This document shows positions 38,951 to 62,231 of a stretch of DNA of 64,000 bases, piece after piece. The stretch lies in IMG/VR virus record IMGVR_UViG_3300042691_012617, positions 62,001-126,000 of that record. One strand, given 5' to 3'. Within the stretch, counting starts at the first letter, position 1, and every line of letters starts with the position of its first letter. The position numbers and the translations under genes are program-made. This DNA comes from a virus. The notes beneath the pieces are model-generated. The model worked only from the letters and a program-made list of their open reading frames with translations, searched no databases and was not told the origin of the DNA.

Positions 38951-41385
<2,435 letters not shown>

Positions 41386-41386
<1 letters not shown>

Positions 41387-42372: not shown

Positions 42373-43404
42373 CTATTTAGCCCACCTCTTCATGGCAATA
42401 TGTCCCGCAAGTCCTGAAAATGCATTTCTTATGATGTCATGTTGGATGTTTGTCCTGCCGTTCCCTGCAAGAACCATGTCATTGATATCCTTCAACCCAC
42501 GGAATCTCTCAGACCAAACACATACCTTATGACCGTCCTCCAAAAGACGCTCCATCGCTTCGGCAACTTGCTTGTTGCGAGGCTCATTGTCCAATGCATA
42601 GATTAGGTCTGAATCCTTCAGTTCATCGGGAATATTCGTGGCATCCGACAATCCGACCATGGCTACGCAGTTGTCCAAGAACAGACTGTCCAATGGACCT
42701 TCGACTACGATGACTTGCTTCTTGGGATCGCATCTGTCCAAGCCATACCATGTCTTTCCCGCGTCCTTGTCTGCCTTGACTGTCAGATATCGAATGGTGC
42801 TTCGATCAGGCTTACCATTCCCAATGATACGACCCTGTGCGCCAACCACCTTGCCATCTGTATCCAAGATCGGAATGACGATTCGTTCATCATCCCCTGC
42901 CTGTACATCGGGGTCAATGTTCTTAGCCCACTCGCCATAATCCTCTGAGTAATAGAGCCGACTCAGACTTTCCTTTGGCAAGCGTCTCTTGTGTGCCCAC
43001 TTGACGGCGGGGTGATCGTCAGGCAGGGAATCCAATCGGGGAAGAAGGGCGAGGATCTTATCCTCTCTACGCACGGGCGCGTGTGGGAGCGCGTCCGCGT
43101 GTGTGCGCGTGTGCCCGTGCGAGACCCCCGTTTCCTTGAGTACTTCGAAGATGTACTGCTTGTATAGATTGGGATCTAGCATCTTCAACAGCCAACCTAT
43201 GCTTGCGCTATAGTCGCAGTTGTGACACTTGCAGGAAAAGGATCCCTTCTTCTCGTACAGATAGAACCGAGCCTTGCTCTTGCTCTTCTGACTGTCACCA
43301 CACATGGGACATCGACACACCGCAAGACTCTGCTTCTTCCATTGAAAGCGGTCTAGGCGTGGTGATAGCAAGTTGATGTACTTCGTGTCGATGTGGATCG
43401 GCAT
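42373..43404 (-). CDS. 61: gp61 DNA primase
   Basis: 343 residues from the ATG at 43404 (MPIHIDTKYINLL). A GTG 24 bases upstream overlaps the promoter -10 and is rejected. Primase for lagging-strand RNA primers, working with gp41. N-terminal zinc ribbon: C32-x2-C35 (CPMC) and C60-x2-C63 (CHNC). The Toprim domain shows VIVVEGPLDSLFLDN and LIYALDNEPRN. The C-terminal part (GLKDINDMVLAG) matches T4-like primases. The promoter has a perfect inverted repeat in its spacer. Confidence 0.9.
   Translation of the reverse strand: MPIHIDTKYINLLSPRLDRFQWKKQSLAVCRCPMCGDSQKSKSKARFYLYEKKGSFSCKCHNCDYSASIGWLLKMLDPNLYKQYIFEVLKETGVSHGHTRTHADALPHAPVRREDKILALLPRLDSLPDDHPAVKWAHKRRLPKESLSRLYYSEDYGEWAKNIDPDVQAGDDERIVIPILDTDGKVVGAQGRIIGNGKPDRSTIRYLTVKADKDAGKTWYGLDRCDPKKQVIVVEGPLDSLFLDNCVAMVGLSDATNIPDELKDSDLIYALDNEPRNKQVAEAMERLLEDGHKVCVWSERFRGLKDINDMVLAGNGRTNIQHDIIRNAFSGLAGHIAMKRWAK
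42374..42380 (-). promoter_or_regulatory. late promoter CTAAATA
   Basis: At the very end of the primase gene (its TAG stop overlaps the motif), 17 bases upstream of the small acidic gene. Confidence 0.6.
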
Positions 43405-43416
43405 TAGATTTGGAAT

Positions 43417-43445
43417 ACTGTACCCCACGATCTGTGGGGTGTCAA
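43417..43445 (-). promoter_or_regulatory. primase promoter with palindromic spacer
   Basis: Minus-strand TTGACA (43440-43445) and TACAGT (43417-43422) with a 17-base spacer. The whole spacer is the inverted repeat CCCCAC-5 bases-GTGGGG, a likely operator. The rest of the gap, 43446-43575, is A/T-rich with one more small hairpin (CGATTT TGG AAATCG) and no gene. Confidence 0.65.
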
Positions 43446-44585: not shown

Positions 44586-45077
44586 TTAGCCGTTGGGCAC
44601 GATCATCGCATGGACTTGAGTCAATCCATTTGGCAACTTGTTGGTCTCAACACGGAGTGCGAGACCATGACCGAGCATGGGGGTGATTCCGTCATCGTGA
44701 TTTGTTCCGTAGGTCGTGCCGTCAGAACCAAACACGCCACCGAAACGAACAAGAGGAAGAAGTTCCTCTGTCTGTGTTGAGAGACGCATGGCACAGTCAC
44801 GATCCATATGGAAATCTAGACCGACCATCTGAAGCCGACCCTGTGCCTGTTTTAGGGCAGACACAGGGTCGATGTATGGCTTCGCAGATAGCGCACCGAG
44901 ATAGGTGTTGATACGAGCAATCGCTGCATTCGAAAGAGAGGACAGGTTGATGTCGGTGCCATCAAGTGCGTTGTCGCCATCCTGTGGACCTACCCGACCA
45001 CGAATGCCCACCATGTCATATGCGGCATGGGCAGCGGTTTCGTTGATTGTCTTTCTCAGTTCTTTGAACGATCTCAT
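44586..45077 (-). CDS. predicted internal head protein with capsid-targeting N-terminus
   Basis: 163 residues from the ATG at 45077, which has a TAGGAG site. The N-terminus MRSFKELRKTINE resembles the T4 capsid-targeting sequence (MKTYQEFIAE) and ends in I-x-E, the cleavage motif of the prohead protease. The rest contains LDGTDINLSSLSNAAIARINTYLG by position and a His/Gly-rich C-terminal domain not recognised. It lies 11 bases downstream of the late structural gene at 45089. Confidence 0.55.
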   Translation of the reverse strand: MRSFKELRKTINETAAHAAYDMVGIRGRVGPQDGDNALDGTDINLSSLSNAAIARINTYLGALSAKPYIDPVSALKQAQGRLQMVGLDFHMDRDCAMRLSTQTEELLPLVRFGGVFGSDGTTYGTNHDDGITPMLGHGLALRVETNKLPNGLTQVHAMIVPNG

Positions 45078-45088
45078 GTTAACTCCTA

Positions 45089-45874
45089 TCAAGCGGTTGT
45101 ACCAAAGGACACATAGAAGGTAGTGGCAGCAGTCAGTCCACCCGCACCATTATCGGTGACAAGAAGAGTTACTGTGCGAGGTCCGCTGTTTGCAGTTGCA
45201 CCAACCTTGTTGATCTTGAACACGGCGATGTTGTTGTTGATGTCCGAAGTGGGGCCAAAGAAGGTTTCATAGATCGCGGAGGGAACACCAGTTAGGAGAG
45301 TGCTTCCTGAGATGATGTTACCCGCTGCGCCGAACTGATCGGTTACTTCAGAGAAAGAAAGATTCTGCGTGAAGTTAGCGTCATTTGCAACAACCTTGAT
45401 GTAAGCGGTCTGACCACCACCAAACTGCAAGGTAGAGACTCCGTAACCATTTACGGCATAACTTCCATAATTGGCACCACTTCCAGTAGCAGAGTTGGCG
45501 AAAGAGAGACCAAGCCCATCAACACCACCCGCAGTTGCGCTGTCGCCGCTGAACGGACATGTAAAGTACGGACGAGTGTTTGCCGCTTCTCCCGATGCAG
45601 CCGCGCCACCCGTAGCCGAAATGCGACCCGCATAGGATGAACTCGTAACGCCCGTGATCGATGGATCGATTGGCATTGCAACGAGAAGTTCCATAAACGG
45701 AGTACTGAATGTCAGGGAGGTCGCACCTCGGACACCCATCAACTGACCGCCAAGCGAAGTGCCGTCAAGTGGAAGTTCCCAACCCGCAACTGTGCGGATG
45801 CAGCGAATCTTTTGCGATGCGTTGAGCCATGTAGGCTTAGATTCCTCGCGGTCGTTTGCGTTCCAGTAAGACAT
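45089..45874 (-). CDS. virion structural protein
   Basis: 261 residues, beta-rich, Gly/Ser/Thr-rich, with a conserved-looking start MSYWNANDREES...WLNASQKIRCIRTVAGWELPL. This layout (short acidic start, then a Trp-containing anchor) is common in marine T4-like virion proteins. A strong ribosome site (GAGGAGAAC) and a late promoter suggest high late expression. It could be a decoration or neck protein; not assignable. Confidence 0.6.
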   Translation of the reverse strand: MSYWNANDREESKPTWLNASQKIRCIRTVAGWELPLDGTSLGGQLMGVRGATSLTFSTPFMELLVAMPIDPSITGVTSSSYAGRISATGGAAASGEAANTRPYFTCPFSGDSATAGGVDGLGLSFANSATGSGANYGSYAVNGYGVSTLQFGGGQTAYIKVVANDANFTQNLSFSEVTDQFGAAGNIISGSTLLTGVPSAIYETFFGPTSDINNNIAVFKINKVGATANSGPRTVTLLVTDNGAGGLTAATTFYVSFGTTA

Positions 45875-45899
45875 TTTTGTGGTTCTCCTCTGTGCTTTC

Positions 45900-45906
45900 T
45901 ATTTAT
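45900..45906 (-). promoter_or_regulatory. late promoter ATAAATA
   Basis: Includes the TAA stop (45903-45905) of the upstream gene; 25 bases before the structural protein ATG. Confidence 0.7.
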
Positions 45907-46340
45907 CCGCCGATTTTCGGTGGGTTCTTGCCCTTGCCTGCTAGACCGTCATTGGTACCGAGACTCGACTTGGAAGTCGGCTTGGCAGTCTTGCTAGCAA
46001 CAGAGGCGGGGGTTTCTAGTTCATTTGCCTTATGCGAAGGGTTCGAAACCTTTCCTGCGGGAACGACTGCTGTCTTTCCCTCAAGGTGCAGTTGAACTGC
46101 CTTGGCAAAGTCATTGGCTTCCTTGGTGGTACCACGGCAACCACAATCCTTCACAGCCTCATTGAAGAGATTGACAAGGGTGTTGCGACGATCCTCAAGG
46201 ACGGTCTTTTCTGCAACGATCTTGGCGGCTTCAGCAGCCTTCTCTCCCAAGCAAGGGAGGATGTCTACATCGTTGCGATGTTCGTTTAGGAACTTGGTGA
46301 TGTCAGCGACCACCTTAGAGTTGAATGGATTGTGGAACAT
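45903..46340 (-). CDS. late hypothetical protein with low-complexity tail
   Basis: 145 residues. The first 90 are helical with three cysteines (LPCLGEK, DCGC); the last 50 are a Lys/Ser/Pro/Gly-rich linker ending GKNPPKIGG. No family recognised. A perfect TATAAATA late promoter indicates a structural or assembly role. Confidence 0.55.
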   Translation of the reverse strand: MFHNPFNSKVVADITKFLNEHRNDVDILPCLGEKAAEAAKIVAEKTVLEDRRNTLVNLFNEAVKDCGCRGTTKEANDFAKAVQLHLEGKTAVVPAGKVSNPSHKANELETPASVASKTAKPTSKSSLGTNDGLAGKGKNPPKIGG

Positions 46341-46362
46341 GGTGTCTCCTGTTGATACTGGT

Positions 46363-46370
46363 TATTTATA
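46363..46370 (-). promoter_or_regulatory. late promoter TATAAATA
   Basis: Exact T4 consensus 22 bases before the ATG at 46340. Confidence 0.75.
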
Positions 46371-46378
46371 GATGCGCG

Positions 46379-46639
46379 TTATCCGCCCTTTGCTTTCTTC
46401 CAAAGATCGGCATCAGCAGTCTTGCGGGTCTTGCCACCCACAATGAAAGAGTTCACACGGGCGAATGCCCATTGATGGCTTGTAGCACCAGGACGGTGTC
46501 CCCCCTTCCATGCAGCCATGCCCCTGTCATACACTTTCTTGAGGATGCCGTATGAAATGCCGCTAGCCTTTGCTTTTTTTTCCAAAGCGGCGATGCGAGC
46601 CTCTGTAATGTCTTGTTTCAGGGACTTGTAGTTTTTCAT
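46379..46639 (-). CDS. DUF5824-type predicted internal head protein
   Basis: 86 residues from the ATG at 46639, overlapping the stop of the big gene (ATGA). The N-terminus MKNYKSLKQDITEA is capsid-targeting-like, with a cleavage motif I-T-E before Ala at 13/14. The remainder, with SGISYGILKKVYDRGMAAW, HRPGATSHQWAFARVNSF and a Lys-rich end, matches the DUF5824 family of phage proteins. Basic and small, it could be a DNA-bound internal protein. Confidence 0.65.
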   Translation of the reverse strand: MKNYKSLKQDITEARIAALEKKAKASGISYGILKKVYDRGMAAWKGGHRPGATSHQWAFARVNSFIVGGKTRKTADADLWKKAKGG

Positions 46640-49600
46640 GACTTCTTCTCGGGGTTGTAGCCCCATACCTTGAGTGCGAGCAACTTGCGTGTTGGGCGAC
46701 CCTTCTCGTCACGCATGCCGCCCTTGGCACCCTTCATGCGGTTGATGAAGTTAACTTGCTTACCCGCCCATTTCCAATCGTTTGGTGTCCACTTTTCCTT
46801 GGGGGTGTCAAGCATGCGGATGATGGCACGGGCAGAGTCACGACCACTTGTGATCTTCTTGCCTCCTGCTCCTGCCTTTCCTGCCTCCTTGCGAGACAGA
46901 CCCGCTTCCTTGCCCTCGTCAGAATCAAGGAACGACTGAATCTCCTTGCCCGACATGTTTACGAGTTTCTGCCACTCCTTGTAGAGAGCCGACTTTTCCT
47001 CTTCCGACTTCTCTTCGCCAAGCCGCTCACGCTCTCCTGGAGTGTCCTTCTTATATGTCTTGACGATCTCGTCGCTGCCGACCAACAGCGGGCCTCTCTT
47101 GCCCATTGCAGTCCATTGCAGGACAGCATTGATCTTCTTCGATTCGTTCAGCCAGTTCTCTGTGGTATCGGTTTCCTCGCCGTGCATCTTCCACGCAGTA
47201 GCATAGAAGACTTCCTTCCAACGCTTGCCATATCGCTTTTGGAACTCCTTCTTGATCTTCTCTTTCTTGGAGAAGCGACGAGCAGGGCCGCTTGGAGGAC
47301 TGACTTCGACCAAGAGGTAGTCAAAGTCTTCGTTGATGTCGGTCTTGGGCAATTCGCTGCCCATCTCGCTATCGCGGATTTCCTTCAGCAAATCAATGTA
47401 TGAACGAGTCAATTGGGCAGCCTCCTGCATGTTACGAGTCAAGCAACGCTCCTCGTAGGCAATTGCCATACGAAGTTTGATTGCGTTTCTTTCATCAGAT
47501 TCATCGATCTTGGACAGACGCTCCATTGCATCGTCGTGTTCGTAGCCATTCTTGAGAGCCTTCAACTTACCCTTCTTGGCGAGTTTCTTGTACAGGGTGC
47601 TGTACTTCGATGGCTTGGTCTTGATGTCTTTCTCATCGGGATTGACAAACTCCCATGTCTGTGGATCGTCATCAGACATTGTCTTGCGCTTTTCAAGACG
47701 CTTCTTGCGAAGTTCGGCTTCTTTCTTGCTCAGACCCGCGACATACTTCTTGGGTAGACCCGAACCCTTGTCCTTTGGGCTTTCCTTTGTTTTACCTGTC
47801 TTGGTCTTGAACTCCTTGCCCTTCGTGACATCTGCTTCAATAAGGGGATTGCCTTCCATCTCATCGCCCATACCGAGCATGCTGAGGAAACTCATGGCAC
47901 CCGACACCAACTTAGTGGCGTAGACACCAATATCAATACCACCCGATTCCATGAACTTGTGGAATAGTTTGGCAATGATCTTGCCAATCTTGTTGTCTTG
48001 GGCAAACATTGAAAGGGTAACCCCTGCGCCCGAAGCCTTGTATGCCTGAAGCATGACTTCATCGCGGACACGCATGACTTCTCGCTTGAAATCTGCGGGT
48101 GGAATCTTGCCTTTCTTGTTCACCAAAGTGAAGACCTTTGCGCTGACTGCGGGAGTCTTCATGATCTCCGCAACAGCCTTCGCAGCATCTTTGACTGCGG
48201 TCTTTTCAACAAGTTCTTCCTCTTCTTCCTCGTCGCCCTTGCGCTTGGAGTTGATATCGGGCTGTGGGTAGATCGCTTCTGCGGGATCGACAACCATGCC
48301 TGTCTTACTGAGGAACTGCAATCCAATCAGCACCTTTGTGGACATGTGACTGCGGTCGCCAAGGCTGAACTTGATGTTGGGATATTTCTTGCCATGGAAC
48401 TCAATGTCCATGAGAACCACAAGACGCTTCTTCTCACCGATACCGCTCTTGACGGTGATGCGACTGACGATCTTTTTAGTGACCTTCTTGCCATTGGGCA
48501 ACTTGAAGGTGACTGTGTGATCGCCGTTGTCCTTGATGTCCTCGGCATGGATCATGTTGTAGCCGCTGTTGCCCGTGTCGATCTTGGCGGTGTACTCCGC
48601 ACCATCGATCTTCACTTCTTCACGCACGGCTAGGTTGGAGAACAACTTCCAATGTGCCTTGTTGAGGATGTAATCGACCAAGTCCTCTACAAGTTCCTCC
48701 CCCTTGACATTGTTCTTGCCCTTGCCATCCTCGTAGTAGCGGTAGTAAATGTTTCCGCTACCTGGGCTTGCATTCATCTCAATGATGTATGGCTTGCCCT
48801 GATTGATGACATGGTCGATACCGACATAGTAGCACTTGCTTACCCTTGCAGCCCGCTCCACCAACTTTATTTCCTCGTCAGAAAGTTGGAAAGACCCGCC
48901 CTTTGAACCACGGGCGATATTCGTGCGGAAGTCCTTGGGTGCCTTGTCTCTCTTGGCACACGCAAAGATCTTTCCGTTCAGCACGATGCTGCGGACATCG
49001 TTCTTGAAGTCAGGTAGGAACTCCTGAATGATGACTTCTGCCTTGTACTTCCATAGCGTCTGAAGCACCGACTTCAGGCTCTCCATGCTTTCGATCTTGG
49101 AGACACCGATGCCTTCCGCGCCCGTGAGAGTCTTCACAATGATCGGGAACTTGCCACCGACTTCCTTGACCGCAGTTTCAATGTTCTCCTCGTTGGCAAC
49201 GAATGCCGTGCGGGGGTGGGGCAACTCATGCTTCTTCAGGGCGATTGCCGTCTCCAACTTGTTGGCGCACAGTTCCATGCCACCACGCTCGTTGACCATG
49301 AACACGCCATTGTTCTGTAGGATGGTCATGATTGCGACTCCGATGTCGCTATTCATCACGCCACCGCGAACAATAGCAACCGTGTCGCTTGGATTGATGG
49401 TGCAGTCCTTGCCTTCACCGTCATAGTTCTTGATGACGATCTTCTTCGATGCAACGCTAGAAATGTCAACCTGAGCCTTGCTCGTCTTCACGGCATAGAA
49501 CTCAATCTTTCGTCGCTTGCAGATCGCTTCCATCTTCTCAATGGTGTCGCTCAGATCCTTCTCCGACGATGTGAGGGCTAGGATGGTTACCTTGTCCTCT

Positions 49601-50241
49601 CCATCCTTGGCTTCGAAGATGTACTCTTCCTTGAGGTTCAATCCTTTTCGGACATCGTTGTACATCTTCTTCTTGAGAGCCATGTCGGTTCCCGCGACAC
49701 CTGTGGCAAACTTCTTGAAGTCGCCATCAAATGCTGCTGCTCTCATCTTGGAGGCAGACATGCCCTGAACGCCCTGTGCATCATCGTCACGGGCTTCCCC
49801 TGCCTGTACGACTTCGAAGTTGTCGAATGAGTACTTGCGCTTCTTTGGATCGCGCTCGGCGGTTCTGCCCTTGTACTTTGCGATGTTCTTGAAATTCTCG
49901 ACCTGATCGCTGCCTGCAATCATCACGATGTTCTTGTAGCCCAAGTCACAGACATGCAGAACCGCAGAGTATGGATCTCCCGCCTTGTTCAGAGGGAACT
50001 TCGCCTTGGGGAAGAACTTCTTCAAGTACTCCACCTTCTGCTTATGTGTCAGGGGATTCTTTTTGGGATCCTGTGAGGTAGAGGCAAAGATGAAGTGATC
50101 GGCATTCCGCTTGGATGCCTCGGAGAGAACTTTGTCAACAAGCACACCGTGACCGATTGTCGGTGGGTTCATGCGACCGAATGCAATGACTACCGTGTCT
50201 TTCTTCGGTGCTTCCGTGAGGTGCTGTGCAAAGTTCTTCAC
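46636..50241 (-). CDS. NTase / RimK-type ATP-grasp / RimB-type retropepsin fusion
   Basis: 1201 residues. Residues 1-10 (MKNFAQHLTE) look like a capsid-targeting peptide. Residues 15-205 are a HIGH-type nucleotidyltransferase (FGRMNPPTIGHG at 21-32; GMSASKMR at 160-167). Residues 215-535 are a RimK-like ATP-grasp ligase (KTLTGAEGIGVSK at 370-382, VIIQEFLPD, VGIDHVIN, YIIEMNASPGSGN). Residues 545-660 are a RimB-like aspartic protease (AKIDTGNSGYN at 552-562; STKVLIGLQFLSKTG). A hydrophobic stretch lies near 775-790, and residues 803-1201 are a Lys-rich unknown part. [LI]-x-E|A sites occur at 10, 41, 210 and 802, three of them at domain borders. It is coupled to the ligase-like gene upstream. 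Confidence 0.75.
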   Translation of the reverse strand: MKNFAQHLTEAPKKDTVVIAFGRMNPPTIGHGVLVDKVLSEASKRNADHFIFASTSQDPKKNPLTHKQKVEYLKKFFPKAKFPLNKAGDPYSAVLHVCDLGYKNIVMIAGSDQVENFKNIAKYKGRTAERDPKKRKYSFDNFEVVQAGEARDDDAQGVQGMSASKMRAAAFDGDFKKFATGVAGTDMALKKKMYNDVRKGLNLKEEYIFEAKDGEDKVTILALTSSEKDLSDTIEKMEAICKRRKIEFYAVKTSKAQVDISSVASKKIVIKNYDGEGKDCTINPSDTVAIVRGGVMNSDIGVAIMTILQNNGVFMVNERGGMELCANKLETAIALKKHELPHPRTAFVANEENIETAVKEVGGKFPIIVKTLTGAEGIGVSKIESMESLKSVLQTLWKYKAEVIIQEFLPDFKNDVRSIVLNGKIFACAKRDKAPKDFRTNIARGSKGGSFQLSDEEIKLVERAARVSKCYYVGIDHVINQGKPYIIEMNASPGSGNIYYRYYEDGKGKNNVKGEELVEDLVDYILNKAHWKLFSNLAVREEVKIDGAEYTAKIDTGNSGYNMIHAEDIKDNGDHTVTFKLPNGKKVTKKIVSRITVKSGIGEKKRLVVLMDIEFHGKKYPNIKFSLGDRSHMSTKVLIGLQFLSKTGMVVDPAEAIYPQPDINSKRKGDEEEEEELVEKTAVKDAAKAVAEIMKTPAVSAKVFTLVNKKGKIPPADFKREVMRVRDEVMLQAYKASGAGVTLSMFAQDNKIGKIIAKLFHKFMESGGIDIGVYATKLVSGAMSFLSMLGMGDEMEGNPLIEADVTKGKEFKTKTGKTKESPKDKGSGLPKKYVAGLSKKEAELRKKRLEKRKTMSDDDPQTWEFVNPDEKDIKTKPSKYSTLYKKLAKKGKLKALKNGYEHDDAMERLSKIDESDERNAIKLRMAIAYEERCLTRNMQEAAQLTRSYIDLLKEIRDSEMGSELPKTDINEDFDYLLVEVSPPSGPARRFSKKEKIKKEFQKRYGKRWKEVFYATAWKMHGEETDTTENWLNESKKINAVLQWTAMGKRGPLLVGSDEIVKTYKKDTPGERERLGEEKSEEEKSALYKEWQKLVNMSGKEIQSFLDSDEGKEAGLSRKEAGKAGAGGKKITSGRDSARAIIRMLDTPKEKWTPNDWKWAGKQVNFINRMKGAKGGMRDEKGRPTRKLLALKVWGYNPEKKS

Positions 50242-51440
50242 GACTCGTTTACCTTTCTATTCTGTCTGCTGAACCGCAGACGATTGACCAACTTGACCGC
50301 CGTACCCGTTCTGACGATCACGATTCCTTCGGGGTCGGTGGGACGAATACCATCAGCATCCATGAAGAAGTGACCAAGGGCAGAGACCGCATACAACTTT
50401 CCAAGGATCATCTCCTTGACCTTTGCGATCTTGTTATGCAGTTCAAACATAGCATTGAACTGATCCTCGTAAGCATCGATGAAAGCGAGGATGTCGTTCA
50501 TGGCGGTTTCCTTCGCCTGTCTCCCCTTCTCGGTCTTCAACTTATTTAGTTCCTTTTCCAACTTAGTCTTTACATACAGTTTCAGACCACTTGCGCTGAA
50601 ACTGGTCAGACCGCCGTTGATCGTGCTGTTGATGTAGGGGAGCATCAGCGGCATGAGGTCTTTACGGGCAAGCAGGGGCTTCAGGAAAGGCTTTACCTTC
50701 TTGGCTAGCGTCTCGCACTCGGTGATGCCCCGAAGCGCGGTATCGCCTTCCCCGCCCTTCAGGAGGGCAGGGGTGAGGTCGTAGATGTTCGGATCGGTGA
50801 ACCAAACATCAGGATGCTGCTTGAGTTTGCTAGCGTTGAAGTTGAAGGTGGTTGCCTTCAAATCGGCAAGGGTCTTGCCTGAATACTCGGTGTGGAATGT
50901 AATTCCAATCTTTGCGGCTGCAATCCGCTTGCCGATTTCGCTGTCAGACGGGACGGTGTATAGAATCGTATTTGGTTGGAATCCAATATGTGGCTTTCCG
51001 CCAATCGTCAGACTCTTCTTACCATCAGCGGTGAACATCAGGTCGCCCTGAAGCACACCCTTGATTCCTACCTTTGGCAAATACTTCAGGCATTGAACCA
51101 ACTTGTCTGCCAAGTCCTTGATGTCAAATCCCTTGCGAATCTCTTCTTCGGTATGAAACACCTTCTGCACTTGCTTGCCGAAGACACCCTTGATAGCGAC
51201 GAAAAACTTCTTGTTCTCGGGATTGATGCCGCAGATAACAGCAGGCTTTCCATCCCATTTTGTGGACATTCCTAGCGATGTGTTGCCCGTCTTGAGACTC
51301 TGAACGATGTCCTTCATGAAGGCAATCGCATTGTCCAAGCCACTCCCACCCTTGAGGAGCATGAGATCTTCGATGTGATCTAGGTGCTTGTTCTGCTCAG
51401 TTTGCTCCATGAGAGGGAGCATTTGCTTAAATGACAGCAT
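50238..51440 (-). CDS. covalent nucleotidyltransferase (ligase-like), DUF6267-type
   Basis: 400 residues. Motif I of DNA/RNA ligases and capping enzymes is visible as STKWDGKPAV with K61. GVLQGDLMF (about 128-136), DPEGIVIV (E371) and AVKLV (K383) look like motifs III/IIIa, IV and V. The N-terminus MLSFKQMLPLME fits the capsid-targeting pattern with L-x-E at 10-12. The family is widespread in T4-like marine phages (DUF6267 as I recall). It is coupled by ATGA to the fusion gene. Substrate unknown; RNA or DNA end joining or repair after injection is a guess. Confidence 0.6.
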   Translation of the reverse strand: MLSFKQMLPLMEQTEQNKHLDHIEDLMLLKGGSGLDNAIAFMKDIVQSLKTGNTSLGMSTKWDGKPAVICGINPENKKFFVAIKGVFGKQVQKVFHTEEEIRKGFDIKDLADKLVQCLKYLPKVGIKGVLQGDLMFTADGKKSLTIGGKPHIGFQPNTILYTVPSDSEIGKRIAAAKIGITFHTEYSGKTLADLKATTFNFNASKLKQHPDVWFTDPNIYDLTPALLKGGEGDTALRGITECETLAKKVKPFLKPLLARKDLMPLMLPYINSTINGGLTSFSASGLKLYVKTKLEKELNKLKTEKGRQAKETAMNDILAFIDAYEDQFNAMFELHNKIAKVKEMILGKLYAVSALGHFFMDADGIRPTDPEGIVIVRTGTAVKLVNRLRFSRQNRKVNES

Positions 51441-51459: not shown

Positions 51460-51466
51460 TATTTAG
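51460..51466 (-). promoter_or_regulatory. late promoter CTAAATA
   Basis: 19 bases upstream of the ligase-like gene, just after the tRNA. Confidence 0.65.
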
Positions 51467-51478
51467 GCTCATATGAAA

Positions 51479-51553
51479 TAGGCGGGGCGGGAGTCGAACC
51501 CGCATGAGGGCGATTATAAGTCACCACCTTTTACCACTATCAGGCACCCGCCC
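51479..51553 (-). tRNA. tRNA-Ile (anticodon UAU)
   Basis: A cloverleaf can be drawn on the minus strand. Acceptor GGGCGGG pairs with CCCGCCU (one G-U at 1-72), a D arm with GUGGUAA follows, and anticodon stem GGUGA/UCGCC holds loop CUUAUAA (anticodon UAU, reading AUA). The T arm is GCGGG-UUCGACU-CCCGC and the discriminator is A. CCA is not encoded. It is the only tRNA seen and lies between gp41 and the ligase-like gene. Confidence 0.85.
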
Positions 51554-51558
51554 GTAGT

Positions 51559-52992
51559 TTAAGACCAACCCTTTATGGTTGGCTTCTCGCGCCCGTACCC
51601 GCCCGTGCGCCTGTGTGCGCCCCCGCCCCCGTGCGCGTGAGGGGCATCGTCTTCGTCTTGGTCATCGGCACCGTTGCCTTGAATCAACTGCTGTTGCGAT
51701 TCGTCCACATCAAACAACTTCATCTTGGCACGGTCGATCCCGATCACGAACTTGCGATTCGTGGCGACATCGTTGTAGCGGTTCTTCAACTGCTTGACCA
51801 TGACCTGTCCCAACTCGTCCAACTGTTCCGTGGCGATGAGGGCGAACATGAAGTCTGCGGTGGCGGGTAGACCAAAAGATTCCGATGTGTCAGTCAGTTC
51901 CACATCGGTATTGCCGAAGCCCGAACGATTGGTCTGTGTTGCGGTGAAGATCGGCACCCCAACCTCCACAGCCAAGCCGCGAAGTTCCTCTGCAATTGCC
52001 TTGACATAGGTGTACGAATTGACATTTCCGTTCGCCTTGAAGCGAGACGATGCACAAATGTTCAGGTAATCGATGAAGATAACATCGGGCTTGAAGTTCT
52101 TCTTCAGGCGCAGTTCATCCAACAAGTGACGGAAGTGATTGGCATTCGCAGATGCCGTGGGGTACTCCTTGATCAGAAGTTTGCCTGTGATGCCCATGGT
52201 CACCTTGGCAAGCCGCTTGGCATAGATCTCCATTGGCAACTTCTTGAGATCGTCTAATGTGATATCCATAAGGTTAGCATCGATTCGCTCTGCAATCCGC
52301 TCCTCTGCCATCTCACAGGTGATGTACAGGACATTCTTGCTCTGTGACAAGCAGTTAGCGGCATGGTGGCACATGAACAGGGACTTGCCCACGCCTGTAC
52401 CCGCGAGGATGACATTCAGAGTCTTGTCGGGCACACCGCCGTTGGTGATCTTATTGAAGTAGTCTAGGTCGAATGGTGTCTTCTTTTCTACGCGGTGGTA
52501 GAAGTCGTACCGCTTCTCGGCATCCTCAATGAAATCGTGACCGATGTGTTCATCGAACGACACGCTGAGTGCCTTGGTCAGGATCTCGGGGATGGCGTTC
52601 TTCGACCGACCCTTCGCCTTCTTCTCGTCAAGGAGTTCGATGGACTCCATCAGGGCGTTGTAGACCGCCTTGTCCTTGCAGAACTTCTCGGTCTGATCAA
52701 CAAGCCACTCCTCATCAGGCTCCTCGGTGCCTTTGTCCATCGTCTCTACCAACTTGACACACTCATCAAACTCACCCTGAGATAGACCGTCCTGTTGATT
52801 CAGGATGATCTTCAGGGCTTCGCGGGTGGGAGCGGTGGAGTACTTTTCGATGAACTCAGACACCGTGTTGAACAGCCGCTTCTCACAGGAGTCGTGAAAG
52901 TACTCCTGCTTGAGAAATGGTTGGACGCGGCGTGTGAACTCGGGTCTGTGAAGAAGACTGCGTAGGATGATGAGTTCAATCTTGTCGCTCAT
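51559..52992 (-). CDS. 41: gp41 replicative DNA helicase
   Basis: 477 residues (T4: 475). DnaB-type hexameric helicase that unwinds ahead of the fork and activates gp61. Walker A LAGTGVGKSLF is near residue 200, Walker B VIFIDYLN near 305, and the sensor region ATQTNRSGFGNTDVELTDTSES is typical of the family. The C-terminus is an Asp/Gly/His-rich tail. The N-terminal helical domain (LRSLLHRPEFTRRV) matches the primase-binding domain. Its gene follows the sugar cassette and has a probable promoter at 53005-53032. Confidence 0.93.
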   Translation of the reverse strand: MSDKIELIILRSLLHRPEFTRRVQPFLKQEYFHDSCEKRLFNTVSEFIEKYSTAPTREALKIILNQQDGLSQGEFDECVKLVETMDKGTEEPDEEWLVDQTEKFCKDKAVYNALMESIELLDEKKAKGRSKNAIPEILTKALSVSFDEHIGHDFIEDAEKRYDFYHRVEKKTPFDLDYFNKITNGGVPDKTLNVILAGTGVGKSLFMCHHAANCLSQSKNVLYITCEMAEERIAERIDANLMDITLDDLKKLPMEIYAKRLAKVTMGITGKLLIKEYPTASANANHFRHLLDELRLKKNFKPDVIFIDYLNICASSRFKANGNVNSYTYVKAIAEELRGLAVEVGVPIFTATQTNRSGFGNTDVELTDTSESFGLPATADFMFALIATEQLDELGQVMVKQLKNRYNDVATNRKFVIGIDRAKMKLFDVDESQQQLIQGNGADDQDEDDAPHAHGGGGAHRRTGGYGREKPTIKGWS

Positions 52993-53038: not shown

Positions 53039-53668
53039 TCATTTCTGAAGAACAAAGATTCCACACCCATTCCACCAACCACTTGAATCGTCTGAGCCGT
53101 AAAACTCTTGCTTATGAAGCGTTTTAAGTTTTAGTTCGTTTATGGCACGATATGTTCCATTTTGAACTTTAGACCATGACCAATCATCAACCATGAAGAT
53201 GAAGGTTTCTGCCATCGAATCGTAGTAATGTTGAAGTGCGCGGTACTGATTGATCTCTTGATGCTCACCATCGTAGAAGTAAACATCAATATTTGAGATG
53301 CCTCTTTCTATTGGATTGAATGAGAAGCAATCCTGATCGATCAAGTTTGGCTCTCCTCCGATCAATCGCTTCCAATTATCAACAAACTCTTGACGAGGTC
53401 CACCAAATTCAGAGAAGTCATCGATAACTGTGTAGTTGAGTCTGCTGTGGTTTCCACGGAGGGCTGCAATTGCAGTAGATCCCTTCCACACCCCAATCTC
53501 CAAGTAGTTCTTTACGATTTCCTTAGAAAGCAGTCTGTTTGCAAACCTCTTGTATTTCGCTCCCGAAAATCCCTGAATAGAAAGGATATCGTCAGTTACA
53601 TTTGACGGCTGCGTGTCATCTAGAGACTCTTGTAGGGAAGTAATGAGTTGTTCTACTCTGTTTGTCAT
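53039..53668 (-). CDS. SAM-dependent methyltransferase, TylF/Methyltransf_24-like
   Basis: 209 residues. The SAM site NYLEIGVWKGSTAIAAL (about 55-71), an Asp-rich NIDVYFYDGEH (about 125-135) and MVDDWSWSKV are typical of TylF-like sugar O-methyltransferases. It overlaps the epimerase gene upstream by ATGA and ends the cassette, so O-methylation of a sugar is the likely step. Confidence 0.7.
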   Translation of the reverse strand: MTNRVEQLITSLQESLDDTQPSNVTDDILSIQGFSGAKYKRFANRLLSKEIVKNYLEIGVWKGSTAIAALRGNHSRLNYTVIDDFSEFGGPRQEFVDNWKRLIGGEPNLIDQDCFSFNPIERGISNIDVYFYDGEHQEINQYRALQHYYDSMAETFIFMVDDWSWSKVQNGTYRAINELKLKTLHKQEFYGSDDSSGWWNGCGIFVLQK

Positions 53669-54594
53669 TGTGTTGCCTCTGTTGTACGAATGTTCTCACC
53701 TAGCCATGCCATGAGTTTTACCTTTGGTGTCCAATCAAGAAGTTCCCGTGCTTTTGTATTGTTGCAAAGAGTATGTCGGGCTTCACCTTGTCTAGGAGGA
53801 AGGAATTTGATCGTACCATCCTCTCCTGCAATGGTTCTAGCGATATGAATTACAGAATGAGATTGTCCTGTTCCGATGTTGATGATTCCACCATTGAAGA
53901 ATTTGGTAGAGGTTCCTGCTAGTATGTTTGCTGACACAATATCGGACACATGTATGTAATCCCGTGTTTGCATCCCATCTCCAACAACTGTAAGAGGCTT
54001 ACCCTCTTCCTTCTGCCGCTTGAAGACAGCGACCACGGGACAGTACTGCCCCTTGTTTGACTGCCCCTCCCCGTACACATTGAAGTATCGAAGACAAACA
54101 GTATCCATGAACCGTGGCTCGGCATACAGTTTGCACAGTTGCTCACACATCAACTTGCTTGTTGCGTAGATGTTCAGACAATCGACAGGCTCGTTTTCGT
54201 CCTGTCCACCGCCATAGCCACCCTTACCGCCGTTACCATAAATTGCGGATGTGGAAGAGAAGACAAATCGATTGACTCCACCCTTCTTTGCACAGTCCAA
54301 GATATTGAATGTCCCTGTGACATTCGATGCAAATGTCTTGGCGGGATCAGCAATGCAACGCTGAATGCTAACCTCCGCTGCCATGTGAAACACAGTATCA
54401 ACTCCCTCAAAATCCGAAGGGACTAGGTCATTGATGTCTGAATTGATGTTGATGGCACGATCATTCCACTTGAAAGATTCATGCCCTTCCGAACTTTCGT
54501 TGTCCACACAGATGACTGTGTGTCCTTGTTCGATGAGTGTGTTGACTAGGTGTGAGCCGATGAAGCCCGCACCGCCAGTAACCATGTATTTCAT
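53665..54594 (-). CDS. NAD-dependent sugar epimerase/dehydratase
   Basis: 309 residues, extended short-chain dehydrogenase. TGGAGFIGSH (6-15) is the NAD-binding loop, VFHMAAEVSI follows, the catalytic S is in VFSSTSAIYG, and the Y-x3-K pair is in IYATSKLMCEQL. DYIHVSDI and IINIGTGQSHSVIHIA support a UDP-sugar epimerase-like enzyme (UDP-glucose 4-epimerase family). The exact sugar is unknown. Confidence 0.8.
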   Translation of the reverse strand: MKYMVTGGAGFIGSHLVNTLIEQGHTVICVDNESSEGHESFKWNDRAININSDINDLVPSDFEGVDTVFHMAAEVSIQRCIADPAKTFASNVTGTFNILDCAKKGGVNRFVFSSTSAIYGNGGKGGYGGGQDENEPVDCLNIYATSKLMCEQLCKLYAEPRFMDTVCLRYFNVYGEGQSNKGQYCPVVAVFKRQKEEGKPLTVVGDGMQTRDYIHVSDIVSANILAGTSTKFFNGGIINIGTGQSHSVIHIARTIAGEDGTIKFLPPRQGEARHTLCNNTKARELLDWTPKVKLMAWLGENIRTTEATQ

Positions 54595-54604
54595 TGTGCA
54601 TACC

Positions 54605-55522
54605 TCATGATGTAAATTTCTTCAATTGCTTGCTGTGGATATGTAGGCTGAGAATTTTGGCTCTATCTCCCGTTCTGCGATCTACCACGGAGAAATACCG
54701 TTTTCCTTGCTTGTCCCGCATCTCCTCGAATCCCCACTTTTTCGTTGCCAACATTCTTCCAATGTAATGATGACCAAAGATAGTGCCAGGTGGATTTCCA
54801 TTGTTACATCCACCAAAGAACTGACCGATGCTGATCGGATCAAAGATGCCTCCGATGAAAGACCAAAACTTTGAGAAGTCGCCTTCGACCCAAACGGGAA
54901 GAGTATTCACATACACATCTCCCAACTCTCTCTGAACACGCTTCCACAAGTACATGTCATACGCTGCTTGTGGATTGTCCTTCTCGTTCATCATCTCCCA
55001 AAACTTGTCATTGATGTCCATCAAAGACCTGTAATCCTTGATGTACACCATTCCAAAGATCAGGGCATTTTCATGCTCGGCAGTCATGGCGGTTCTGTTG
55101 TACAGACGCTTCACTTTTTCGGCTACCTCATCCATATTACAATAGATCATGACATCGTTGTCGAACGAGAATGTGTTCTTCAAGTTGTGCTTTTTCATGA
55201 CCTCTTCAATATAGAAGGGGCGCATCAAGCAAGCCTTCCAAAGAGGATCCCGATCTCCTGCCCAATGCCCCGTCGAGTCAACATCATACCTAGGCTTCAG
55301 ATCAGAGATTTTTTCCCACTTGACATTCAGCCGTTCGAAGTTTTCTTTGTTGGAAACATTCTCATCGTCCAAGATAACGACGATATCGCTGTTAGGCGAC
55401 CACTTTCTCGCTTGCTCTAGAGATGTCCAAATGTGGTTTTCCCACGGATCGTAGTGGGTGTTCGTCTTGGGATCGTATGACTTGTTTCCCATTTGAAAAA
55501 TGACAATAGATGATTCTGACAT
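54605..55522 (-). CDS. predicted glycosyltransferase
   Basis: 305 residues. An acidic pair in FSFDNDVMIYC (about 120) resembles the DXD metal site of GT-A enzymes. Flanking segments DIVVILDDENVSN and VYVNTLPVWVEGDFSKFW are compatible with a GT-A fold. Its position inside the sugar cassette supports this. No specific family assigned. Confidence 0.6.
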   Translation of the reverse strand: MSESSIVIFQMGNKSYDPKTNTHYDPWENHIWTSLEQARKWSPNSDIVVILDDENVSNKENFERLNVKWEKISDLKPRYDVDSTGHWAGDRDPLWKACLMRPFYIEEVMKKHNLKNTFSFDNDVMIYCNMDEVAEKVKRLYNRTAMTAEHENALIFGMVYIKDYRSLMDINDKFWEMMNEKDNPQAAYDMYLWKRVQRELGDVYVNTLPVWVEGDFSKFWSFIGGIFDPISIGQFFGGCNNGNPPGTIFGHHYIGRMLATKKWGFEEMRDKQGKRYFSVVDRRTGDRAKILSLHIHSKQLKKFTS

Positions 55523-55534
55523 GATGATTACCTT

Positions 55535-56245
55535 TCAGGATGGATTTCTTGTGTGAATGATGCAGGGGTCTACTGGATTGCTGTATTGAGTTATGTCCTT
55601 TTCCGAGTAGACAAATGTGTTGTGCTTCCATGAGAGCAGGCTCATGATGCTTTGGTCGTGTCTGTGATCCTTGAACTCTTCGTAGTTGGGCAACCGCTGT
55701 GTGTTGGGCAAGTCTGTGAGAATCCTAGGATCTTTCGCGTACTCCAACCACTCCTTGACAAAGGACATGCTGCCCTCCGTCTTCTTGCATACGAAGATGC
55801 TAGCCATTCGCTGATCTGCTCTTCGCATTTCCTCTGTGTCCATGCCCATCAGGACAAAGCAGTCTCGTTTTGTGAACATGCCGTTGGTCCCACACCAACC
55901 GAATGTGAGGATGCCCATGCTGCCGATGCGATCTTCTATAGCATCTATGTCAAGCCATTTCCATGGATTACTTTGGAAGTACATTCCTGCGTCCGTGTAC
56001 ATGAGCCAATCGTTGGTGTTCATTTGCTCCAAGTGACGGAGAATCAGGTATGGCTTCCAAAGCCAGTATCCCGCACCTCTTGTCTGAGAAAGCGTATACG
56101 CATTCTCTTCTCTGAAGCGATCATCCAAGTCTTCAAGACCATATCCGATGCTCTTGTCGAATCCACCGTGAGATAGTGCGGTATCGCAACACAGTTTCTG
56201 TGATGCTTTGTATCTACCGTGGGCGTAGTTGATGTGAATTTTCAT
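55535..56245 (-). CDS. predicted glycosyltransferase (capsule-type)
   Basis: 236 residues. The segment RGAGYWLWKPYLILRHLEQM with MYTDAGMYF, and the C-terminal HDQSIMSLL, resemble capsular-polysaccharide and FkbM-adjacent glycosyltransferases that read YWLWKP...YxDxG. It overlaps the RfbH-type gene by four bases (ATGA). Confidence 0.6.
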   Translation of the reverse strand: MKIHINYAHGRYKASQKLCCDTALSHGGFDKSIGYGLEDLDDRFREENAYTLSQTRGAGYWLWKPYLILRHLEQMNTNDWLMYTDAGMYFQSNPWKWLDIDAIEDRIGSMGILTFGWCGTNGMFTKRDCFVLMGMDTEEMRRADQRMASIFVCKKTEGSMSFVKEWLEYAKDPRILTDLPNTQRLPNYEEFKDHRHDQSIMSLLSWKHNTFVYSEKDITQYSNPVDPCIIHTRNPS

Positions 56246-57591
56246 GCAGTTGCAGAAAGATTATTAAAGAACTGATCCACAATCTTGGAGATGTATGAAA
56301 TCTGTTCCTCTGTGATAACGGGGCTTGTCCCCAAGAAGAAGGTGTCTTTGGTCACCTTGGTTGCCACGGGGAAGTCATTCTTGGCATCCATATCAACTGC
56401 TAGATGCTCATATCCAGGCTGTAGCAGAATGTTGCCACCGAAATAGTTCCTTGTTTGAATCTTGTTGTCTTCCAAGAACATCGTGAGATCGGTTCTCTTG
56501 AAGGGTGCCCCATCTCTGATTGTAAGTGGAAATGCAAACCAAGCAGGATCGGCCTTTGGTGTGGGGATCGGCAAGTGGAAGTACTGCCCGTACTTGGAGA
56601 ACACATTCAAGAGCAGGGAGTAGTTTCGCTTTCTGATGTCGATGATGTTGTCCAACCGATCAAGTTGAACAAGTCCCATCGCTGCTTGCAGATCAAGAGG
56701 CTTTAGGTTGTAGCCAATCTCCTCATAGACATACTTGTGATCGAAGATCTCATCAGGCATGCTTGGAAGCCAGTTGCTGAACCGCTTCTTGCACATACCG
56801 TTCTTAAGACAGGACGCAGCCTTGCCCGAGCAATAACAGCCTCGCCCCCACTCCCTCAGACTCTTGATCAGCATTTCCTGCTCTTTAGTTCTAGTGGCAA
56901 TGAAACCACCTTCGCCCATCGTTATGTGGTGGGCAGGATAGAATGAACAACTAGCCATCTCACCGAACGAGCCTAGCATCTTGCCATCGTAGGTGCTTCC
57001 CAAGGCATCGCAGCAGTCCTCAATCAAGATGAGGTCATACTTTTTCACGATGTCCATCACGGCATCCATGTTGGGAGGATTGCCTAGGACATGTGCAAAC
57101 ATCAATGCCCGTGCCCCGTTCTTGGCGGCTTCCTCCAACTTGACCACATCCAAATTCAGAGTATCGACTTCAATGTCGATGAATACTGGCGTGAATCCGT
57201 TCTGAATGATGGGGTTCACAGTAGTCGGAAATCCTGCAACAGGGGTGATGATCTTGGACCCCTTCGGAAGATTCCAAATCTTCCGCGATGTGAGAGCAGA
57301 CACCATCAGGAGGTTTGCGCTAGAACCGCTGTTTGTGAGACAGCCGTGATCCTTTCCAAGCCGCTTGGGGAACTTGTTTTCAAACCTAGTACCGTTCTCT
57401 CCTAGGCAGAGCCAACCACCCAAGAGGCATTCAATGACTGCGATGTACTCCTTCTCGTCCATGAACGAGCCTGAATACTGCACCCAATCAGTTCCTTCCT
57501 GCCAAGTCTTTTTCTTGGAAGAAACAATTTCGGTGACCAGTTTGTTGATCAACTGCTGCTTGTCTTCAAGACGAATGTTTAGTTCCACCAC
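56242..57591 (-). CDS. RfbH-type CDP-6-deoxyhexose 3-dehydrase
   Basis: 449 residues from a GTG at 57591 (start uncertain; a TTG 33 bases upstream is also open). DegT/StrS-fold enzyme in which the PLP-binding Lys is replaced by His: FYPAHHITMGEGG (about 219-229). A Cys cluster GRGCYCSGKAASCLKNGMC (about 262-280) fits the 2Fe-2S site of E1 (RfbH/DdhC). That enzyme removes the 3-hydroxyl from CDP-4-keto-6-deoxyglucose and needs an E3 reductase, which is not seen here. HKYVYEEIGYNLKPLDLQAA completes the match. Confidence 0.85.
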   Translation of the reverse strand: MVELNIRLEDKQQLINKLVTEIVSSKKKTWQEGTDWVQYSGSFMDEKEYIAVIECLLGGWLCLGENGTRFENKFPKRLGKDHGCLTNSGSSANLLMVSALTSRKIWNLPKGSKIITPVAGFPTTVNPIIQNGFTPVFIDIEVDTLNLDVVKLEEAAKNGARALMFAHVLGNPPNMDAVMDIVKKYDLILIEDCCDALGSTYDGKMLGSFGEMASCSFYPAHHITMGEGGFIATRTKEQEMLIKSLREWGRGCYCSGKAASCLKNGMCKKRFSNWLPSMPDEIFDHKYVYEEIGYNLKPLDLQAAMGLVQLDRLDNIIDIRKRNYSLLLNVFSKYGQYFHLPIPTPKADPAWFAFPLTIRDGAPFKRTDLTMFLEDNKIQTRNYFGGNILLQPGYEHLAVDMDAKNDFPVATKVTKDTFFLGTSPVITEEQISYISKIVDQFFNNLSATA

Positions 57592-58472
57592 TTGTAGATA
57601 CCTCTTGCTTGCTTTGGTGTCCAACCTATGTTGCGAATTTTACTGGTGTTCAGCGAGTAGCGCAAGTCTTGTCCCCACCGATTCGGAACAAATTGTATCT
57701 CGTCTCTTGTTTTTCCAAAGACATTCAAAAGCGTTTCAACCACCTCAAGATTGGTCATGTGGTTGTCTGCACCGATATTGAAGGTATCGTTCTTGACACC
57801 GTTCGCAATCAGGGTGTAGATTCCATCTGCATTGTCCTTCACATAAATCCAATCTCGCACATAGGAACCGTCTCCGTGGAGAGGAATCTTCTTTCCAGTT
57901 TCAAGGCAGCGAATCGACTTGGGGATCAACTTTTCATAATATTGCCGCTGACCATAGTTGTTCGAACTGCGGGTAATCAGGTAGTTGATTCCGTAGGTGC
58001 GATGATAGGAAAGAACAAGCATTTCCGCTGCTGCCTTGGACGCGGAATACGGGTTGCTAGGAGTCAGTTTGTCAGACTCGCTGAAAGACCCATTTGGTCT
58101 ATCTCCATAAACCTCATCTGTGCTGATCTGTACAAATAGAGGTCTCTCATGTGGTGGCTTGCCACGGATGATCTCAAGTAGATTGTGAACCCCAATGATG
58201 TTGCTTCTGATGAAGGGGTTTGTATCGTTGATTGAGTTGTCAACATGAGTTTCGGCAGCAAAGTTGACAAGAACATCACAAGAAGGGAGATGCTTTATCT
58301 CGCAGATATCTGCCTTGTGGTGCTTGTAGTTTGGATTGCCATCGAAAGGCAGTTCCTCATTTGAGCAGTAGGTCATGCAGTCGAAATCAACGACCTTATG
58401 CCCCTCTGCAAGAGCCTTTTCGACAAAGTGACTACCAATAAAGCCACGCCCGCCTGTCACAACTAGTTCCAT
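57579..58472 (-). CDS. NDP-glucose 4,6-dehydratase, RmlB/RfbG-like
   Basis: 297 residues from the ATG at 58472 (MELVVTGGRGFIG; AAAGG site). Extended SDR fold: TGGRGFIGSH, AAETHVDNSI, catalytic block STDEVYG, Y-x3-K in NPYSASKAAAE, and SSNNYGQRQYYEKLIP. The set of motifs is closest to dTDP-glucose 4,6-dehydratase; it may supply the 4-keto-6-deoxy substrate used by the next enzyme. Its end overlaps the RfbH-type gene. Confidence 0.85.
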   Translation of the reverse strand: MELVVTGGRGFIGSHFVEKALAEGHKVVDFDCMTYCSNEELPFDGNPNYKHHKADICEIKHLPSCDVLVNFAAETHVDNSINDTNPFIRSNIIGVHNLLEIIRGKPPHERPLFVQISTDEVYGDRPNGSFSESDKLTPSNPYSASKAAAEMLVLSYHRTYGINYLITRSSNNYGQRQYYEKLIPKSIRCLETGKKIPLHGDGSYVRDWIYVKDNADGIYTLIANGVKNDTFNIGADNHMTNLEVVETLLNVFGKTRDEIQFVPNRWGQDLRYSLNTSKIRNIGWTPKQARGIYKWWN

Positions 58473-58489
58473 GATAAACCTTTCAGATG

Positions 58490-59317: not shown

Positions 59318-59321
59318 GATG

Positions 59322-60994: not shown

Positions 60995-61005
60995 GTTGTA
61001 GTCTT

Positions 61006-61653: not shown

Positions 61654-62231
61654 CGTGCCACCTGATGGTTGTGCGTCTCTTCGAAAGTCTTGCTGCACTT
61701 GTAGTTGTAGATCACTCCCTCAATCCACTCCTCTTTCTTGAGGTAATGGCGAATACCCATGCTGAACGAACGGTCCTCCCCGCTGTTCCATGGTGGAAAC
61801 CCAACCTGTACAGCAATTGCCCTACGAACAGCATTGAGGTGGTTCGGGGGTCGATAGTACACCTTGCCCTCATGATCATCAATCCATTGAGTATAGCGAA
61901 GCGAGTGAATGAACGGTCGGCTATAACCATCTGAGAAGACGATCTCGCCCGTGAGGGACGAGCAGTCGGGGTTCTTCGTCAGAGCATTCAGAACCTTTTC
62001 GATATAGTCGGGGCTGACCGTGTCATCGTCATCAACAAAGGCAACATACTCGCCTGTTGATTGGGTGAGCAGCATGTTGCGCTTCTGCCCGATGCTCATC
62101 TGCCTGTTGTCAGACAGGGACAGCACTTCGACATTTCGCTTGCCGATCTGATTTGCCAGTTCGGCTTTCAGTTGCTCAAGTTTGGGCTTCCGCTCCTCTA
62201 GGCTAGGAATCAGAATAGAAAGTTTATGCAT
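61650..62231 (-). CDS. family 2 glycosyltransferase, paralogue B
   Basis: 193 residues starting MHKLSILIPSLEER. GT2 features are LSDNRQMSIGQKRN and AFVDDDDTVSPDY; NSGEDRSFSMGIR is the ED-containing acceptor loop. A tandem duplication with the gene downstream is evident. Confidence 0.8.
   Translation of the reverse strand: MHKLSILIPSLEERKPKLEQLKAELANQIGKRNVEVLSLSDNRQMSIGQKRNMLLTQSTGEYVAFVDDDDTVSPDYIEKVLNALTKNPDCSSLTGEIVFSDGYSRPFIHSLRYTQWIDDHEGKVYYRPPNHLNAVRRAIAVQVGFPPWNSGEDRSFSMGIRHYLKKEEWIEGVIYNYKCSKTFEETHNHQVAR

Follow-up and report, generated by a model that had tools for sequence, protein, structure and literature searches.

Predicted T4-type capsid-targeting tags on enzymes and on a probable effector polyprotein of a freshwater phage

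The internal proteins IPI, IPII and IPIII of phage T4 carry an N-terminal capsid-targeting sequence (CTS) recognized by the prohead protease gp21. Mutagenesis assigned targeting to residues 4 and 7 of the CTS and processing to residues 8 and 10, with the cut made after L/I-x-E, and a use of the CTS for varied cargo by T4-like phages has already been put forward in the literature (PMC9026906), where injected multi-domain proteins are also described (PMC5512222). Here we analyzed a stretch of 64,000 nucleotides (the window), representing positions 62001-126000 of the 168,426-base IMG/VR record IMGVR_UViG_3300042691_012617, from a T4-like freshwater phage. Among the annotated phages compared, none was nearly identical to it. 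Four of its genes, designated A, D, E and F, encode N-termini of one shared pattern, all on the minus strand and where a sequence-only reading had placed them (arrows denote predicted cuts):

50238-51440, minus strand: gene F, starting MLSFKQMLPLME↓Q
51405..51440, minus strand: F tag MLSFKQMLPLME, taken as a CTS propeptide with a predicted cut ahead of Q13 (from relatives and a structure model)
50238..51404, minus strand: F body, DUF6267 (PF19782, E=3e-94)
46636-50241, minus strand: gene E, 1201 aa, GTG start, starting MKNFAQHLTE↓A
50212..50241, minus strand: E tag V/MKNFAQHLTE, strict T4 geometry, GTG start, predicted cut before A11
46379-46639, minus strand: gene D, starting MKNYKSLKQDITE↓A
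46601..46639, minus strand: D tag MKNYKSLKQDITE, predicted cut before A14; close relatives start MKDYKNLINCIQE↓A and MKRFKDLVLNIQE↓A
46379..46600, minus strand: D body, DUF5824 (PF19141, E=7.5e-19)
44586-45077, minus strand: gene A, starting MRSFKELRKTINE↓T at an ATG inside a longer TTG open frame
45039..45077, minus strand: putative A tag MRSFKELRKTINE, relaxed spacing, predicted cut before T14
44586..45038, minus strand: A body, of no known family

It is likely that these genes belong to a T4 capsid-targeting system carrying enzymes together with an effector polyprotein, encoded by E, which would be matured by the prohead protease. The capsid-targeting interpretation, already proposed in the sequence-only reading, is supported by an S77 protease gene in the same record, by tagged relatives of E detected in the virions of three cyanophages, by a tag that even divergent relatives of F and D and of the fused modules retain, and by a late promoter ahead of tagged operons.

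Cytidylyltransferases related to E have been detected in virions of S-SM1 (T4-GC190; PMC3037559), S-SZBM1 (SSZBM1_140; PMC9146016) and S-CREM2 (gp154; PMC10665884), and we found that they start with MKKFSAFLNE↓A, MRFRQFIIE↓A and MKNFSSFLTE↓A, respectively. In S-CREM2, all three strictly tagged proteins (S-adenosylmethionine [SAM] hydrolase, kinase and cytidylyltransferase) are in the virion, and the strict tag occurs in 0 of the 167 undetected proteins (p = 3e-4 with the head/tail block left out); with the loose rule defined below the association is weak (p=0.013). The neighbouring S-CREM2 proteins gp13 (MKDLHSFLTE↓Q) and gp12 fit a relaxed rule, which also takes a few undetected proteins. The virion-detected gp12 (L010:7704-10313) is Cas9-like, and a leader of 18 residues precedes its tag-like RFASFMAE↓A; it would be unusual for a nuclease of this kind to be packaged. 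In the relatives of E, the tag ends in HLTE↓A, HITE↓A, RLTE↓A, HINE↓Q or HISE↓A, keeping H[LI]xE↓[AQ]. For the cytidyltransferase of phage C48C1 (CDS0089, L119), the start is annotated too late and the upstream frame reads VIKNFSQYLLE↓EEREVYFTFGR, a tag missed by annotation.

The tag was sought among the 184 predicted genes of the record by a loose rule (aromatic residue at 3-5, [LI]xE ending at 8-18) and by strict T4 geometry (an aromatic residue at 4 +/- 1, followed by hydrophobic ones at +3 and +4 and by E at +6). Nineteen genes fit the loose rule, as against 3.6 +/- 1.9 in residue shuffles (maximum 10 in 2000), and 8 fit the strict geometry, as against 0.30 expected from internal windows (27-fold, p about 1e-9). 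A chance origin of the tags was rejected on these shuffles and strict counts. The pattern first noticed in the four genes is real, but the set is larger, with about 19 genes that look tagged genome-wide. About 3 of the 19 loose matches resemble the chance background (prohead scaffold at 15176, a small protein at 72046 and a tail fibre at 86024, genome coordinates), and correction of a start gave one more tagged gene at 143152 (MKSFLHHINE↓A). The majority of the tagged genes map to 143-166 kb of the record, beyond the window; tags outside the window include MKSFSQHITE↓AK, MQSFLAHITE↓AK, MKSFKQYIHE↓S and MKSYKDYISE↓S, and further cargo there comprises a deoxynucleotidase (PF06941), an AAA_33 kinase-like protein, a P-loop protein (phrog_5268) and a polysaccharide deacetylase. 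In the deoxynucleotidase family, about 15 of 21 distinct sequences have the site immediately ahead of the domain, a 16th match (L340) being excluded because its LPE lies inside the domain start.

Among the four window genes, strict T4 spacing is found in E only. The other three have the aromatic residue at position 4 and extra residues before [LI]xE (3 in A and D, 2 in F), and because of these they are weaker when judged by their own sequences; relatives lend support to F and D. The record also has T4-type head genes, namely major capsid, scaffold and the S77 (gp21-type) prohead protease (PF03420, E=1e-33; 214 aa, without stops), the gp21 homologue for which the sequence-only reading had proposed a check. 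In the major capsid protein of the record, LRE↓S near residue 47 is a plausible site (LLTE↓A in S-CREM2). Of 12 contigs carrying relatives, 5 contain gp21; the 7 that lack it are fragments, and the comparison is therefore uninformative. Packaging in this phage is very likely for E and F and probable for D, whereas for A, with its relaxed motif, the chances are even; the A body had no match in Pfam and PHROG scans and no informative relatives.

The tag of F is supported by its family. In 31 of 37 distinct DUF6267 N-termini from IMG/VR, a tag directly precedes the conserved H-x-E-H start, and its letters vary freely (MKTFKQYLTE↓A, MHSFRQFINE↓E, MITFAEYLAE↓G, MKSFNTFLLNE↓S). In an AlphaFold model of F (mean predicted local distance difference test score, pLDDT, 88), tag residues 1-14 form the sole stretch below 50. 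K61, D63, G64, G132, D133, E371, G372 and K383 are invariant in 30 DUF6267 relatives, as are the KWDG and EG motifs of ligase-type nucleotidyltransferases. Foldseek of F against PDB gave nothing significant, with DNA ligases and capping enzymes ranking first (E about 0.4), and against BFVD gave the RNA ligase of Atu_ph07 (E=0.007), while a PDB sequence search with the DUF6267 profile found no match. The F body is probably, if tentatively, a ligase-type covalent nucleotidyltransferase with a KWDG motif.

Protein E can be divided into six modules:

49612..50211, minus strand: module 1, residues 11-210, HIGH-type nucleotidyltransferase, cytidyl/NMN (nicotinamide mononucleotide) adenylyltransferase-like (phrog_3041, E=1e-52; phrog_395, E=7e-38)
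48205..49611, minus strand: module 2, residues 211-679, RimK-like ATP-grasp and RimB-like retropepsin-type protease, after the junction EEYIFE↓AKD
47836..48204, minus strand: module 3, residues 680-802, variable helical segment bounded by ELVE↓K and PLIE↓A
47305..47835, minus strand: module 4, residues 803-979, between PLIE↓AD and LLVE↓V
47143..47304, minus strand: module 5, residues 980-1033, bounded by LLVE↓V and WLNE↓S (WLxE↓S in most relatives)
46636..47142, minus strand: module 6, residues 1034-1201, DUF3140/DUF6321-like (PF11338, E=7.5e-7; PF19846 below cut-off)

Module 2 matches PF08443 (E=5e-30) and PF05618 (E=3e-9) and, in PDB, alpha-L-glutamate ligase/S6-glutamate ligase (E to 1e-25), and the DTGNS motif of its RimB-like domain is invariant. 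RimB domains are partners of RimK, and the pair points to ribosomal protein S6, or some other target, as the thing modified. The earlier view that two of the four proteins are enzymes holds for E, with its nucleotidyltransferase, RimK-like ATP-grasp and RimB-like protease, and likely, though tentatively, for F; that reading did not include a polyprotein, which is suggested by the same protease consensus between the modules of E.

The module borders of E, at residues 210, 679, 802, 979 and 1033, coincide with sites of the type [LIV]xE (one [LM]xE). Since the tag's protease-site pattern recurs between enzyme modules, E is a probable polyprotein. The 680-800 segment is lost as a unit in three relatives (L106, L107, L109), another (L097) has a further segment of about 49 residues ending in TVVE↓AD, and other fusion proteins contain a segment related to module 4 (SDDDPxxYKPAPGD..TKPSKYT) with [LI]xE sites after it. 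Where DUF5824, the family of D (whose own tag ends in ITE↓A), is fused behind cytidyltransferases, the join has [LI]xE in 35 of 42 distinct sequences (83%), as against 8% of control windows 20-120 residues upstream. Ahead of the ATP-grasp module, [LIVF]xE is present in 38 distinct fused regions, 30 of them with A at P1', and these junctions keep E, with I/V/L/F at P3 and 12 different residues at P2. As this junction site was sought by pattern, the independent facts are the alignment-invariant E-A and the tagged free versions: in Mosig, L274, L276 and L277 the ATP-grasp module is a separate gene with its own tag (MQVQPFKNYLEE↓A in Mosig, MERFNEFLIE↓K in L274, MKSMSEYRLPLSE↓D in L277). In L092, DUF6267 is fused behind ELINE↓D in a chain which itself begins MKFSTFLTE↓Q. 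For three modules, then, the position occupied by the tag's cut site in free versions has an [LI]-x-E site in fused ones. Cutting of E at its internal sites inside the head is accordingly the option we favor, with some reservation. A 1067-aa protein outside the window (record 148487-151690; L008:4487-7690), begins with tag MMNEFQRRILAE↓A and has segments separated by repeated sites of the EEVEVxE↓ type; from its sequence it looks like a second, more extreme polyprotein.

An element heads the overlapping F-E-D operon:

51460..51466, minus strand: CTAAATA, T4-type late promoter element

We take CTAAATA to be a late promoter because of its likeness to that of T4 and of the genes it precedes. The window has 15 copies, as against 2.8 expected in shuffles, and [CA]TAAATA lies within 100 nt upstream, on the right strand, of 45 of the 184 genes, including major capsid, scaffold, tail tube and sheath. 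F, E and D would thus be expressed late, with the head genes. A tRNA-Ile gene (anticodon tat; window 51479-51553, minus strand) is directly upstream of this promoter. Late-promoter-like elements also precede two genes with related N-termini, MFHNPFNSKVVADITKFLNE↓H (window 45903-46340) and MKDPFNNPLVNDIRNMLNE↓Q (record 139056-139460), possibly a further tag variant.

In the mechanism we propose, the late promoter would drive the F-E-D operon together with the head genes, among about 19 tagged late genes genome-wide. Tag residues 1-10/13, with the aromatic residue at 4 and a hydrophobic one near 7, would bind the products to the prohead scaffold core, and the S77 protease would cut after [LI]-x-E, removing the tag and freeing each protein in the head. 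The same protease would also cut the 1201-aa E at [LIV]-x-E between modules, so that one tag would load several separate proteins. These would leave with the DNA and act before phage gene expression, the delivered set comprising a HIGH-type nucleotidyltransferase of the NMN/cytidyl kind, a candidate ribosome modifier made up of a RimK-like glutamate ligase and a RimB-like protease, and the ligase-type nucleotidyltransferase (DUF6267). Delivery of the tagged proteins to the host appears reasonably likely.

Several observations weigh against this mechanism. DUF6267 is untagged in S-SM1, S-SZBM1, Syn9 and Syn1, the cytidyltransferase is untagged in Syn1, and in L075 neither gene has a tag; the untagged DUF6267 neighbour in S-SZBM1 was not seen in the portion of the S-SZBM1 proteome table available. 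The S-CREM2 statistics rest on three to six proteins. As to direct basis, packaging in this phage, cleavage, internal processing, injection and the enzyme activities are inferred. Linkers could not be confirmed from an AlphaFold model of E, given its quality (13 sequences; mean pLDDT 49): confidence is low at the tag and at each of the five junctions, but it is equally low over more than half of the protein, and for that reason the model was set aside as evidence. The foremost rival is that the tagged proteins are packaged and trimmed while E stays uncut as one multi-domain 'polyvalent' protein, [LIV]xE being helix caps or linker composition. We regard this as unlikely, although xE pairs are common in acidic linkers, P3 of some internal sites is V, F or M instead of the strict T4 [LI], the join of the DUF6267-cytidyltransferase fusions L076 and L080 shows no clear site, and internal [LI]xE[AS] is only modestly enriched when the tagged proteins are taken together (13 vs 6.9 +/- 2.7), a result to which we give no leading weight. 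The frequency of [LI]xE at DUF5824 joins relative to upstream windows, the position of the site in three modules, where the free version has the cut of its tag, and the conservation of P1 and P3 while P2 varies freely all speak for cutting.

That E is processed by its own retropepsin-type (RimB-like) domain instead of gp21 seems very improbable. The PF05618 domain does have the invariant DTGNS motif, and autoproteolysis has been proposed for other injected multidomain proteins (PMC5512222), as for the metallopeptidase domains of P1 DdrB-type polyvalent proteins, but the junctions fit the gp21 consensus and the N-terminal tags. The same junctions occur in DUF5824 fusions, and the cytidyltransferase-DUF5824 fusions of Melnitz and HTVC008M, examined over their full length, have no such protease domain; RimB domains are moreover known partners of RimK. 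Improbable, though less so, is a role of the tagged proteins in assembly or filling of the prohead core in place of early delivery: T4 IPIII also affects head shape (PMC9026906) and injection in this phage is only inferred, but the cargo includes enzymes with no obvious assembly role, and in T4 both Alt and IPI are active within the host cell (PMC9026906, PMC9391042). We give least weight of all to a chance likeness or unrelated leader on ordinary intracellular enzymes, detected in virions of relatives through contamination. Co-purified contaminants were raised as a possibility by the S-CREM2 authors (PMC10665884), and the loose-motif background amounts to about 3.6 genes; however, the strict motif is 27-fold over expectation, detection was independent in three phages, no strictly tagged protein is among the 167 undetected in S-CREM2, and the tag is kept although its letters vary. 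Capsid targeting with maturation by the prohead protease is therefore the reading we retain.

The F/E/D/A region lies between two replication genes:

window 51559-52992: gp41-type helicase, on one flank
window 42373-43428: gp61-type primase, on the other flank

DUF6267 and cytidyltransferase occupy the same gp41-gp61 interval in S-SZBM1 and S-SM1. A PADLOC scan found no match to known defence systems. A SAM-lyase-like protein (PF23780; record 142539-143141, L007:17539-18141), whose own tag is poor, adjoins tagged genes; since a tagged SAM hydrolase is among the proteins packaged by S-CREM2, enzymes that break down SAM may recur as cargo. By eye, window 53039-63974 resembles a cluster of sugar-nucleotide epimerase and glycan-synthesis genes, and is followed, outside the window, by the tagged polysaccharide deacetylase (PF01522; record 126518-127291). 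A tail-fibre-like protein with long collagen-type repeats is encoded at window 38951-41386.

The open-licence literature searched yielded neither a description of the tag on virion enzymes of cyanophages nor one of gp21-type sites separating the modules of an effector chain. With these data, the T4 mechanism, known from a few coliphage proteins, becomes a rule that can be checked on sequence data alone; the tag explains why cytidylyltransferase, SAM hydrolase, kinase and a Cas9-like protein recur in cyanophage virions, and the rule predicts more packaged proteins in uncultured phages. We lean slightly towards the general view that in T4-like phages of aquatic bacteria the prohead protease serves as maturase of polyproteins that supply injected effectors, in chains with one tag and gp21 sites between modules, that at these sites modules pass freely from separate genes into fusions and back, and that tag and sites make up a genome-readable code for the virion effector load. 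If the internal sites are used, the head protease would have a second job, turning a multi-enzyme chain into effectors in a way more familiar from viral polyproteins. RimK/RimB, the nucleotidyltransferase, the deoxynucleotidase, the kinase-like proteins and the weakly tagged SAM-lyase-like protein, all predicted cargo, would act on the host ahead of phage gene expression, as candidate early takeover or counter-defence factors.

Compared with known systems, the locus is closest to the CTS and gp21 of T4 IPI, IPII and IPIII, sharing about ten N-terminal residues with an aromatic at 4, hydrophobics at 7-8 and E at 10, a gp21-type protease in the same genome, a late promoter and tagged relatives in virions. 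It differs in that the cargo is unrelated, mostly larger and enzymatic, with about 19 genes instead of a handful, that some tags are 2-3 residues longer, and that internal sites would split a multi-enzyme chain; Pfam and PHROG matches were to families other than the mature IPI-III and Alt proteins, or absent. With T4 Alt, an injected ADP-ribosyltransferase trimmed by gp21, it shares an enzyme predicted to be packaged, trimmed by the prohead protease and active on the host at once, whereas an ADP-ribosyltransferase domain is missing and the proposed activities are nucleotidyl transfer and glutamate ligation. Like polyvalent proteins (PMC5512222), E joins unrelated enzyme domains in one chain predicted to enter the host with the DNA, but it has a T4-type tag and gp21-type sites at module borders, and Pfam/PHROG scans of E detected neither the polyvalent signature domains (MuF, ART, metallopeptidase) nor a MuF/portal fusion. 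The T4-GC190 virion cytidylyltransferase/NMN adenylyltransferase of T4-like cyanophages shares with E a homologous nucleotidyltransferase, the gp41-gp61 neighbourhood and an N-terminal tag, and has itself been found in virions; the tag is not mentioned in the available portions of the T4-GC190 papers, and in E the nucleotidyltransferase is fused to RimK/RimB and other modules. Finally, the ejection proteins of SPN3US and phiKZ are likewise a large head-packaged set matured by a gp21-related protease, whereas the phage described here combines T4-type head genes with a short T4-type tag.

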